Source: a bacterium
GTDB lineage: Bacteria; Patescibacteriota; Minisyncoccia; UBA6257; 2-01-FULL-56-20
DNA length: 47,313 bases
Assembly: GCA_027310625.1 (NCBI GenBank)
Contig: DAIDAM010000010.1
Span: 1-47,313 of the forward strand
Reading direction: 5' to 3'
In this document: positions 9,661 through 41,911 of the stretch, one piece after another
Layout: each line of letters opens with the position of its first letter
Numbering within the stretch: position 1 is the first letter of the stretch
Program-made: the position numbers and the translations under genes
The notes under the pieces: generated by a model
Told to the model about the DNA's origin: nothing
Database searches by the model: none
Seen by the model: only the letters and a program-made list of their open reading frames with translations

Positions 9661-10206
9661 TCATGCTTCGGATTTTGCGTTTGTGTAAACACCTTGCACG
9701 TCATTGTGCTCATCAAGCGCCCCGAGAAACTTTTCTAATTTGTCTTTATCCTCTTTGTTTAGCTCCTGCGTAAACTTCGCCGACCATCTTCCGTGTTCAT
9801 CAGCGCTTTTCTCGAATGCCCAGCGCACGCTTCCCGGCTCCGCCCATTTGGCGCCGTGCCCGTTCAGAATTTTTTTCACTTCGGAGATCGTCCGATTTTT
9901 GTTGTCGGTTGCAGCTTCAATCAAAATCGCAACTCCGCCCGGCCCATACGCCTCTATTTCCAATTCTTCAATCGCGCCGCCCGGTTCGGAAGCGCGTTTT
10001 ATCGCCCGCGAAATGTTTTCCGTAGGCACGCTTGCGTCTTTTGCTTTCTGCACCGCCGTGCGGAGACGGGGATTGAATTCCGGATTCGGCTCGCCGCGTG
10101 CGGCAGCCGTAATCGCCGCGAGAAGTTTTGAAAAAATCTGTCCCCGTTTTTTATCCGCAATTTCCTTTTTGTGCTTTATTCCCGCCCAATGACTATGTCC
10201 GGACAT
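9661..10206 (-). CDS. yebC: YebC/PmpR family regulator (TACO1-like)
   Basis: MSGHSHWAGIKHKKEIADKKRGQIFSKL. Confidence 0.93.
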   Translation of the reverse strand: MSGHSHWAGIKHKKEIADKKRGQIFSKLLAAITAAARGEPNPEFNPRLRTAVQKAKDASVPTENISRAIKRASEPGGAIEELEIEAYGPGGVAILIEAATDNKNRTISEVKKILNGHGAKWAEPGSVRWAFEKSADEHGRWSAKFTQELNKEDKDKLEKFLGALDEHNDVQGVYTNAKSEA

Positions 10207-10266
10207 AAATCTATAGTAAGACGAAAATCGCTTATATCGCAAATATAAAACTGGCACTGCGGGAAT

Positions 10267-10427
10267 AAATTTTCCCCGTGTTGGAAGATAGGAGCGAAGC
10301 GACGTAAGAAACCAGAAGGTGTCTAATGAAACTTTGTTTCATTCAATCGGTTCGCTCAGCAATCACAATAACTTTATATTCTTGTGTTGCCTCGTTGCCG
10401 ATTGTAAGCGGGGGTCGGGGAAAATTT
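10267..10427. repeat. Structured element family 2, copy 1 (with 80-nt extra internal domain)
   Basis: AAATTTTCCCCG...CGGGGAAAATTT closing stem; 10274-10324 identical to 41275-41325. Confidence 0.8.
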
Positions 10428-10460
10428 AAAATTCCTGTCCCAATGTGAATGTCCAGACAT
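10421..10460 (-). pseudogene. Remnant of a yebC 5' end (MSGHSHW...)
   Basis: ATGTCTGGACATTCACATTGGGACAGGAAT matches functional yebC start ATGTCCGGACATAGTCATTGGGCGGGAAT. Confidence 0.7.
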
Positions 10461-10696
10461 TGCTTTGAATGATGAATTATGAATTTTGAATGACGAATTA
10501 TAAATAAAGAATAATGAACTCCAAATTTTTATCAAATCCGAAATACTGTGAAATACACTAACTACTAAAAGTATGATCGTTGTGCTATAGCACAACACTA
10601 TGACTTGTCATAGCGATGAAGCCGGAGGCCATCCGGAGACCATTCAGATGTACTCGGATGTGTCTATTCGAAGGCATTCGCATACAATACAAAATG

Positions 10697-39448: not shown

Positions 39449-41251
39449 ATGCTTTCAAATCTTGAAGTAGCGAGAGTGCTCCGCGAGATCGGCGAATACC
39501 TTGAGATGCAGAACGTGCCTTTCAAGCCGAGGGCGTACGAGAAAGCGGCACTGGCCGTGGAAGAACTGGAGAACAATGTTTCTGAAATCTACGGAAGCGG
39601 CGGGCTGAAAGCGCTCGAGGAAATTCCCGGAGTCGGCGTTTCCATTGCTGAAAAAATCGAGGAGCTTTTGAAAACCGGAAAATTGAAATATTACGAGCAG
39701 CTGAAGAAAAAAACGCCGGTGGATTTGTCTTCGCTGGCGAGAATCGAAGGTCTGGGTCCGAAATCAATTAAAAAACTTTACAGGGAGCTCGGCGTTGCTG
39801 ATTTGAAAGACCTCGAAAAAGCGGCGCGCGCGGGGAAAATAAGAAAACTCGAGGGCTTCGGCGAGAAAAGCGAAGAAAAAATAATCAAGGGACTGGAATT
39901 TATCGAAAAAGCCGGCGGGAGATTTCTTTTAGGAAGTGTTCTGCCGACGGCATATATGATTGAAGAAAGATTGAGAGAATTGCCCGGCGTCGAAAAAGCG
40001 GTTGTTGCCGGCTCGGCGCGCAGACGAAAAGAGACGATCGGCGATATCGATATTCTGGTCATTTCCAAAAAACCTGCCGCGGCGATGAATTATTTCACGA
40101 ATATGCCGGAGGTGGCGAGAGTGCTGGCTTCTGGGGAAACCAAATCGTCGGTCAAGCTTTCCTCGGGATTGAATGTCGATGTGCGCGTCGTGCCGGCGGA
40201 ATCGTACGGCGCGGCGCTGAATTATTTTACCGGCTCAAAAGACCACAACGTCGCTTTGCGTCGCATCGCCGTAGAGAAAGGATGGAAACTTAACGAGTAC
40301 GGCTTATTTAAAGACGCAGACCAACGCGGACTTCACGCAGAACGACGCGGAAAAATTCAGCGTAAGTCAGCGTTTAGTCGGCGAGAGTCTGCGTCAATGA
40401 TCGCGGGGAGGACAGAGGAAGAAATCTACCGCGCTTTCGGCATGGAGTATGTCGAGCCGGAGATGCGCGAGAACACGGGCGAGATAGAATTGGCGCAAAA
40501 ACACAAACTTCCGAAGCTCGTCGGCTACGGCGACCTCCGCGGCGATTTGCAGACGCAGACGGATTGGACGGACGGCTCAGATTCCATAGAAGACATGGCG
40601 CGGGCGGCAATCAAAGCGGGTCTCGAGTACATCGCTATCACCGACCACACCAAGCGCCTGGCGATGACCGGCGGACTGGACGAAAAAAGAATTCTGAAAC
40701 AAATGGATGAAATCGACGTACTGAACAAAAAACTCGGCGGCAAAATAAAAGTTCTCAAGGGCACGGAATGCGACATTTTGAAAGACGGCTCGCTCGATTT
40801 GCCGGACGGCGTTTTGTCGAAACTTGACGTTGTCGGCGCTTCTGTTCACTCACTTTTCAATCTTTCGGAAGCGGAGCAGACCGCGAGGATAAAAAAAGCG
40901 ATGTCCAATCCGCATGTCGACATTGTTTTCCATCCGACAGGACGTCTGATAAACCGGCGTGAACCTTACAAAGTCAATGTGGAGGAGCTGATTTCGCACG
41001 CCAAGAAAACAGGAACGATTCTTGAAATAAACGCTGACGCGAACCGCCTGGATTTGAAAGACGACTACATCAGAAAATGCGTCGAAGCAGGCGTAAAAAT
41101 GAGCATCGATTCCGACGCCCACTCGGCGGGCCAAGTCGGTTTTTTGGAACTGGGAATCGCGCAGGCGCGCAGAGGCTGGGCGACAAAAGACGATATCGTT
41201 AATGCATGGTCGCTAGAAAAAATGCTGAAATTTTTGAAAGGTGGAAAATAA
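39449..41251 (+). CDS. polX: DNA polymerase/3'-5' exonuclease PolX
   Basis: HhH and PolX nucleotidyltransferase GDIDILVIS; PHP domain DLQTQTDWTDGSDSI. Confidence 0.95.
   Translation: MLSNLEVARVLREIGEYLEMQNVPFKPRAYEKAALAVEELENNVSEIYGSGGLKALEEIPGVGVSIAEKIEELLKTGKLKYYEQLKKKTPVDLSSLARIEGLGPKSIKKLYRELGVADLKDLEKAARAGKIRKLEGFGEKSEEKIIKGLEFIEKAGGRFLLGSVLPTAYMIEERLRELPGVEKAVVAGSARRRKETIGDIDILVISKKPAAAMNYFTNMPEVARVLASGETKSSVKLSSGLNVDVRVVPAESYGAALNYFTGSKDHNVALRRIAVEKGWKLNEYGLFKDADQRGLHAERRGKIQRKSAFSRRESASMIAGRTEEEIYRAFGMEYVEPEMRENTGEIELAQKHKLPKLVGYGDLRGDLQTQTDWTDGSDSIEDMARAAIKAGLEYIAITDHTKRLAMTGGLDEKRILKQMDEIDVLNKKLGGKIKVLKGTECDILKDGSLDLPDGVLSKLDVVGASVHSLFNLSEAEQTARIKKAMSNPHVDIVFHPTGRLINRREPYKVNVEELISHAKKTGTILEINADANRLDLKDDYIRKCVEAGVKMSIDSDAHSAGQVGFLELGIAQARRGWATKDDIVNAWSLEKMLKFLKGGK
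40313..40394. repeat. Palindromic element family 3, copy 2 (in frame in polX)
   Basis: CGCAGACCAACGCGGACTTCACGCAG...GTCGGCGAGAGTCTGCG. Confidence 0.75.
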
Positions 41252-41266
41252 AAAAATGCCCAGCAT

Positions 41267-41349
41267 TGCAAAAACCCCGTGTTGGAAGATAGGAGCGAAG
41301 CGACGTAAGAAACCAGAAGGTGTCTTAAGCGGGGGTCGGGGTTTTTGCA
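41267..41349. repeat. Structured element family 2, copy 2
   Basis: TGCAAAAACCCCG...CGGGGTTTTTGCA; 51 bp identical to 10274-10324. Confidence 0.85.
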
Positions 41350-41360
41350 TGGAGGATGTG

Positions 41361-41423
41361 GCAACCAAAGAAAATATAATCAACGCCTGGCCACTGGAAA
41401 AGATGTTATCATTCCTTAAATGA
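41361..41423 (+). pseudogene. polX 3'-end remnant
   Basis: ATKENIINAWPLEKMLSFLK* vs polX ATKDDIVNAWSLEKMLKFLK. Confidence 0.8.
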
Positions 41424-41911
41424 CCCAAGAGAAACAAAAAAGATTTAAGCGGGAAATCTCTGCCGGCTTCATAGTTTTTAGGAGAACGAGCGAAGGAATA
41501 AAATTTCTCGTTCTCTACCACGGACACAACTACTGGAATTTTCCCAAAGGGAAAATCGAATCGGAGGAGCGGTCGCTGGAAGCCGCTTTCCGGGAAACCA
41601 GGGAGGAATCGGGTCTCGGCAGACACGATCTGCGGCTTGTAAGCAATTTTAAAGTTTATCAGAAATTTTCTTTCCGCAGCCGCGCGCATCGCGGCGGCAA
41701 AGCGCAGGAACCGCAAAATATTTTCAAAATCGTCATTTTTTATCTTGCCGAAACGAGGAATTCGCACATCAGGATTTCGCACGAGCATCAGGGGTACGCG
41801 TGGTTTTCTTTTCCGGAAGCGATGAAAATAATGAACCGCTACAAGGGTAATCAAAAAATATTGAAACAGGCCTATGACTTCATTCATCCCGTTAGAAGCA
41901 ACAGGCCATGA
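41420..41911 (+). CDS. NUDIX hydrolase
   Basis: GKIESEERSLEAAFRETREESGL Nudix box. Confidence 0.9.
   Translation: MTQEKQKRFKREISAGFIVFRRTSEGIKFLVLYHGHNYWNFPKGKIESEERSLEAAFRETREESGLGRHDLRLVSNFKVYQKFSFRSRAHRGGKAQEPQNIFKIVIFYLAETRNSHIRISHEHQGYAWFSFPEAMKIMNRYKGNQKILKQAYDFIHPVRSNRP

Follow-up and report, generated by a model that had tools for sequence, protein, structure and literature searches.

A non-coding foldable element at tRNA and protein gene ends in one order of Patescibacteria, read as a putative integrative cassette

A short structured repeat found in the bacterium GCA_027310625.1, and recurring across one order of Patescibacteria, is best read as an integrative cassette, non-coding and non-autonomous, that brings along a substitute gene end and an att-like foldable site and accumulates in integron-like arrays, a reading to which we assign a probability of roughly 0.6. 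On this reading a gene-free element has repeatedly reshaped essential genes of translation (rplK, rpsI, tRNAs, tmRNA) at their ends, importing gene ends from other lineages, and it would account for the duplicated gene ends and tRNA fragments seen in these genomes. The hosts are ultra-small bacteria of the Parcubacteria type, and such streamlined cells are considered poor in mobile elements. The copies constitute a natural, sequence-readable record of site-specific insertion and point to a recombination activity that remains unidentified.

Two copies between live and displaced gene ends

The stretch of DNA analyzed (the window; 47,313 nucleotides, DAIDAM010000010.1) is contig C16 of a 766-kb genome. 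A first-pass annotation, made from the sequence alone, had described an exact 51-bp repeat with an identical closing segment and with flanking stems that differ between the copies and remain complementary, and these claims held when the sequence was re-read. The 51-mer (CCCCGTGTTGGAAGATAGGAGCGAAGCGACGTAAGAAACCAGAAGGTGTCT) is present twice in identical form, at 10274-10324 and 41275-41325, against a chance expectation of 0; both copies close with TAAGCGGGGGTCGGGG, and the stems are AAATTTT/AAAATTT in copy 1 and TGCAAAAA/TTTTTGCA in copy 2, so that the sequence differs and the pairing is kept. Also confirmed were an extra 80-nt domain with two hairpins in copy 1 and a second yebC start (MSGHSHW) beside it, and the proposal that the element sits between the live start and an older remnant is supported, the remnant being the displaced native end, as it matches the same-genus genome G001. 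The annotation missed that copy 2 likewise lies between two gene ends and that four more copies exist in the genome outside its view; it offered no mechanism, and the same arrangement at tRNA genes and in other genomes had gone unnoticed.

The live yebC gene (TACO1/YebC family; 9661-10206, minus strand), identified by translation, Pfam and ortholog comparison, has cassette-borne first codons. Its crossover region, which reads GCGGGAATAAA on the sense strand of the gene, lies at 10175-10185 (minus strand) and has an exact inverted copy at 10259-10269. The sequence upstream of the live start (10207-10258, minus strand) is inferred to be cassette-borne, the stretch syntenic with G001 being located beyond the element instead. 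Copy 1 itself is on the plus strand. Its left arm (10259-10273), defined by sequence and by the antisense-arm statistics given below, runs from the inverted target copy (GCGGGAATAAA) into AAATTTT; the core (10274-10420; covariance model R1, 36.1 bits) consists of CCCCGTGTTGGAAG, a P2 hairpin (AAGAAACC-AGAA-GGTGTCTT) and GGGGGTCGGGG; and the right arm (10421-10430, AAAATTTAAA) pairs with the left one. The 80-nt insertion (10325-10404, plus strand) separates the P2 helix from the GGGGGTC strand; alignment showed it to be missing from the other copies, and a search of the window for a second copy of it found none. Beyond the right arm, the displaced native yebC start (MSGHSHWDRN; ATGTCTGGACATTCACATTGG, minus strand) extends from 10460 down to about 10431. 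A palindrome (GTTGTGCTATAGCACAAC) was also observed upstream of this native start, at approximately 10575-10600; its G001 counterpart is different and also palindromic.

Copy 2 is located between the 3' end of a live PHP/PolX gene (39449-41251, plus strand; Pfam and ortholog comparison), the last ~25 codons of which are cassette-borne, and a diverged second 3' end (41350-41423). The crossover region in the live gene (GCTGGGC, 41175-41181, plus strand) has its inverted copy, GCCCAGC, at 41258-41264. All further features are on the plus strand: a left arm (41258-41274; sequence and antisense-arm statistics) composed of antisense GCCCAGC and then TGCAAAAA, a 67-nt core (41275-41341; covariance model, 93.9 bits), a right arm (TTTTTGCA, 41342-41349) and the displaced native PHP 3' end (41350-41423, reading VATKENIINAWPLEKMLSFLK and a stop), which is contiguous and syntenic with the G001 PHP end and the next gene. 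That gene, of the Nudix family (41420-41911; Pfam, synteny), still overlaps the displaced PHP stop (ATGA).

A folded element family beside tRNA, tmRNA and protein genes

DNA and covariance-model searches located six copies in the genome of the window, at the yebC 5' end, the PHP/PolX 3' end, the rplK 5' end, the rpsI 3' end (G000:C10:126634-126715), tRNA-Arg and tRNA-Ile. Because the two tRNA copies have another internal hairpin, and GGG/CCC in place of AAG/CTT in the second helix, we consider them to have diverged from the first three copies rather than to be their recent duplicates. With a covariance model built from nine copies, the element was detected in 12 of the 38 genomes searched in the family and in 40 of the 244 in the order, amounting to about 90 copies at one to seven per genome; in a phylum-wide sample of 380, only one genome besides that of the window carried it. 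Genomes were used as supplied by the collections, and an assembly artefact was rejected because 40 independent genomes show this anatomy.

The first-pass annotation had proposed a check for covariation in the stems, and the outcome was strong for both helices. Over 92 distinct copies the covariation score was 0.384, whereas shuffled alignments reached 0.121 and each of the slid controls also fell below the real value; designed pairs were standard in 94.5% of cases, and 11 of 17 pairs had changed on both sides. The arms, which are the flanks of the covariance model, are variable yet keep their pairing, and P2 is sequence-specific. These results show that the structure is not due to chance. Similar cassettes harbor a circularly permuted core (GGGGTCGGG, a hairpin, CCCGTGTAGGAAA, a second hairpin and the GAAACC helix) beside tRNA genes (L259, L255, L257, L073, L037, L040, L111, L113, L114 and L046), with several copies per genome in G175-G177, and this permutation suggests that the fold itself would be the recognized feature.

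Searches for known relatives were negative. No match on the element was obtained in Rfam at gathering or permissive thresholds, phage and plasmid collections gave only chance-level matches, and neither an exact 24-mer in a collection of genome contigs nor five patterns in viral contigs returned any match. The literature searched on Patescibacteria/CPR palindromes, tRNA elements, integrons and repeats contained no description of it. Pattern matches in unrelated bacteria (L019, L021, L023) lacked the core and were discarded as chance.

Most of the copies examined (67 of 91) are found no farther than 400 nt downstream of a tRNA or tmRNA 3' end, with 16 gene classes represented. On the same strand as the tRNA/tmRNA gene there are 55 copies, with a median gap of 58 nt that contains a hairpin followed by a T run in 35; the 12 copies on the opposite strand include 11 located 0-22 nt from the 3' end. 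In 41 of the 55 same-strand copies, the sequence past the core repeats at least 10 nt of the tRNA/tmRNA 3' end (0.5% in mismatched control pairs), and across all contexts 44 of 88 have duplicated ends above 99% of mismatched controls. Duplicated gene ends, for which the first-pass annotation had also proposed a check at other copies, are thus the rule and not universal. Duplications range from about 15 to more than 100 bp, and at recent copies they are nearly identical (98% over 92 bp in L082; 99% in L066 and L051). The left arm is antisense to the neighboring gene at the point where the duplication begins, with at least 10 exact nt in 42% of cases versus 3.6% in controls; examples include yebC (GCGGGAATAAA), rpsI (CATTGCGGGG), L025 (ATACCACCAC) and tRNA-Arg (GGAATCGAACCC). 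No consensus of the exchange sequence was common to tRNA and protein-gene targets.

Protein genes are occupied at their 5' ends (yebC, rplK) or 3' ends (PHP, rpsI in three genomes, an EWWW-motif gene in two genomes, and a thioredoxin-like gene), the rpsI sites being L047, L031 and L037, the genome of the window included. Several individual loci are recorded here as observations. At L080:1487-1561 (G177) the core is flanked by a perfectly identical 123-bp direct repeat that exceeds the tRNA end, suggesting a very recent event; at L053:1501-1569 a copy lies 51 nt past the 3' end of a tmRNA gene; and L068:1501-1687 holds two cores in opposite orientation within 190 nt. In L022:4891-4974 (Parcubacteria CG_4_9_14_0_2 contig PFRL01000043.1) a copy is found in frame inside a sugar-phosphate-isomerase-like ORF of 369 aa, to which it adds about 28 residues (TCSPRSGKIGVQRPKKPEGVSSGGQGESG), without a recognized gene-end duplication. 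Loci L062, L076 and L077 of G040 contain a longer element, with ends CTCTGTGCGGC...GGTAAGAG and perfect, site-specific outer inverted arms of 16-21 bp, also without a recognized gene-end duplication.

Imported gene ends, whole units and the search for a recombinase

To decide which gene end is native we used G001, in which rplK, yebC and PHP are all present and free of the element at the corresponding sites. In rplK, the remnant (MAKPIKTIIKIQIPAGAAN) equals the G001 protein in 19 of 19 residues, the live start being MAKAVKTVIKIQIPAGSAN. Compared with G001 across 57 nt, the remnant agrees at 50 positions and the live start at 39; farther along, starting at codon 20, similarity to G001 in the live gene is back at about 85%. 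For yebC, the second start and the flank upstream of it align to the corresponding start and upstream region of G001; for PHP, the Nudix gene that follows the remnant is also the one found downstream in G001. In rplK and PHP the differences between live and remnant ends fall mostly at synonymous positions, as between functional orthologs of two species. Because the remnants and flanks match G001, these data show, for three protein genes and against one closely related genome, that the live end, its neighboring sequence and the gene-antisense arm arrived with the core and that the outer end is native. The G001 tRNA-Ile locus was also considered as an empty site and dropped, the tRNAs of the two species being too divergent to decide.

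A comparison of the tRNA-Pro(ggg) locus in two congeners, which belong to a related genus, revealed whole units. In G176 a 262-bp cassette B directly follows the tRNA, whereas in G175 the tRNA is followed by a 175-bp cassette A, a 187-bp version of B and a truncated second A (A'), the flanks being orthologous (79-84%). The G175 units end in TCCCGGCAGCCCGAC, which is the tRNA 3' end, and share a 15-bp boundary. One precise unit has therefore been gained or lost at a gene end in this genome pair; two genomes do not set the direction, and excision is possible. Past the array (L262 vs L073), a 2.4-kb P-type ATPase gene is present in G176 and missing from G175. Two tandem units follow tRNA-Lys in G176, and further tandem arrays were found at L025, L066 and L095. 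At the G176 tRNA-Lys locus the cassette terminator is identical to the native terminator, indicating that local target copying may be involved; this identity fits a local duplication no better and no worse than an imported unit. In L259 the antisense arm is not present at the native outer end. No cargo-bearing unit was recognized in the loci read, and units of 175-187 bp leave no room for a recombinase gene.

In the search for the enzyme, a single PF00589 (tyrosine recombinase) protein was found in each of G000, G175, G177, G236, G040 and G050, and the four examined (those of G000, G236, G040 and G177) were best classified as XerA/C/D-like, far below the IntI cut-off. No PF00589 protein was detected in G038, G009 or G120, all of which carry copies and two of which are incomplete; G038 has two copies of the element and is 85% complete. 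No dedicated integrase tied to the element was found in the element-rich genomes checked, no excised circle or single-stranded form was observed, and inspection by eye, without a dedicated scan, revealed no dif-like sequence. Counts of G.T versus A.C pairs (26:19) did not decide which strand folds.

Proposed mechanism, rival readings and relation to known systems

In the cassette model, a unit would comprise a replacement gene end, adjacent sequence (a terminator near many tRNA genes), an antisense left arm, the folded core and a sense right arm. It is inferred to move as a circle or as an excised single strand, with the exchange sequence, present as inverted copies on either side of the core, folding into a hairpin, as attC sites do, and a recombinase acting in trans, still unidentified, would swap the sense arm with the gene end. 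Because the unit brings a gene end, the gene stays whole; we infer that having a working end on board lets the element occupy essential genes at little cost. Re-insertion at the regenerated gene end would build the tandem arrays. The main gap in the model is the origin of the arms and gene end for a new target, and the copies without a recognized gene-end duplication (L062, L076, L077, L022) count against it. A bolder version, toward which we are slightly more skeptical than favorable, is that of a retargetable, protein-free mobile class, in which the core would adopt the antisense and sense sequence of the gene end it occupies and move between species as a cassette with the end of that gene, through an unrecognized recombination pathway spread across one Patescibacteria order. 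To our knowledge, retargeting by arms copied from each new target, if true here, has no described precedent.

The rival that survives best, and remains possible, treats the core as a MITE-like transposable hairpin. Its insertion downstream of genes would generate target duplications of great length (50-130 bp, T-arm to past the terminator), and the foreign live ends would be due to later gene replacement through homologous recombination. The near-identical duplications at the recent copies L082, L066 and L051, the shared terminator at G176 tRNA-Lys and the in-frame insertion in L022 without a recognized duplication support it. Against it, the live end was foreign in all three testable protein-gene copies, with rplK foreign only up to the exchange point; the length of the duplication is not fixed; and the antisense arm is missing at the native outer end of L259.

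Use of the host Xer recombinase through a single-stranded hairpin attP, in the style of CTX phage (IMEX), is unlikely. In its favor, the Xer-like protein is the only tyrosine recombinase in the element-rich genomes checked, and a hairpin with paired arms can form at the site. However, the targets are tRNA T-arms and gene ends, with no dif site apparent by eye, the arms differ from target to target without an evident common Xer-type binding sequence, and G038 holds two copies with no PF00589 match at its 85% completeness.

Two further explanations have little left to support them. A structured RNA or terminator-like regulator of the adjacent gene, multiplied by tandem duplication, would agree with the conserved fold, the sequence-specific P2 and the terminator hairpin often found nearby, but the element occurs in either orientation, at 5' as well as 3' gene ends and in most cases past the tRNA terminator, has no Rfam match, and the foreign gene ends and identical cores at unrelated genes would be left unexplained. 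Unequal or illegitimate recombination between gene-end repeats without specific mobility, which tRNA 3' ends could support as direct repeats able to recombine, is equally hard to sustain given identical 51-nt cores at unrelated genes, target-matched antisense arms, and 16 kinds of tRNA/tmRNA targets at fixed spacing, which need a specific process.

Returning to the cassette reading, no described family accounts for the element, which fails the defining features of both integron cassettes and tRNA-integrating elements. Integron cassettes are small tandem units with a foldable attC site bearing inverted R' and R'' sequences, a fixed receptor site, and a fold more conserved than its sequence (PMC2727003). 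The element resembles them in its small tandem units, its foldable inverted exchange sequence, its insertion beside a fixed receptor, the maintenance of fold over sequence, a left arm antisense at the exchange point with paired arms that covary, and the precise gain or loss of a whole unit (G175 vs G176, one pair). It differs in that no IntI-type integrase was found in the four genomes examined; in that R boxes (GTTRRRY/RYYYAAC) are absent, the T-arm GTTCRA and the protein-gene arms not fitting them by eye; and in that the end of a tRNA or protein gene serves as receptor, the unit contains the end of that gene and no ORF, and the arms follow the target. CTX phage and IMEX use a hairpin attP, and the element may likewise have a folded single strand as its recombination site, but it has many targets and no dif-like site seen by eye. 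As in Rickettsia palindromic elements, REP/REPIN sequences and MITEs (reviewed in PMC10969869), copies are short, palindromic, multicopy and occasionally in frame within an ORF (L022); none of these repeats is known to import a substitute gene end or a target-antisense arm, or to form arrays at tRNA genes, and in contrast to MITEs of DDE transposons the element has neither a fixed short target-site duplication nor constant terminal inverted repeats. Finally, CIMEs and other integrative elements accrete at the 3' ends of tRNA genes or rpsI, replacing the gene end and displacing the native one. The element shares with these tRNA-integrating elements (ICE/IME/CIME) the restored gene end and displaced native end (yebC, rplK, PHP, and the tRNA 3' ends repeated past the core), and with CIMEs the tandem accretion and the choice of tRNA and rpsI 3' ends as targets. 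Unlike CIMEs, its units measure 175-187 bp and have no cargo or recombination genes, with an integrase neither encoded nor flanking, and one conserved core serves 16 kinds of tRNA/tmRNA and several protein genes, with several targets per genome.
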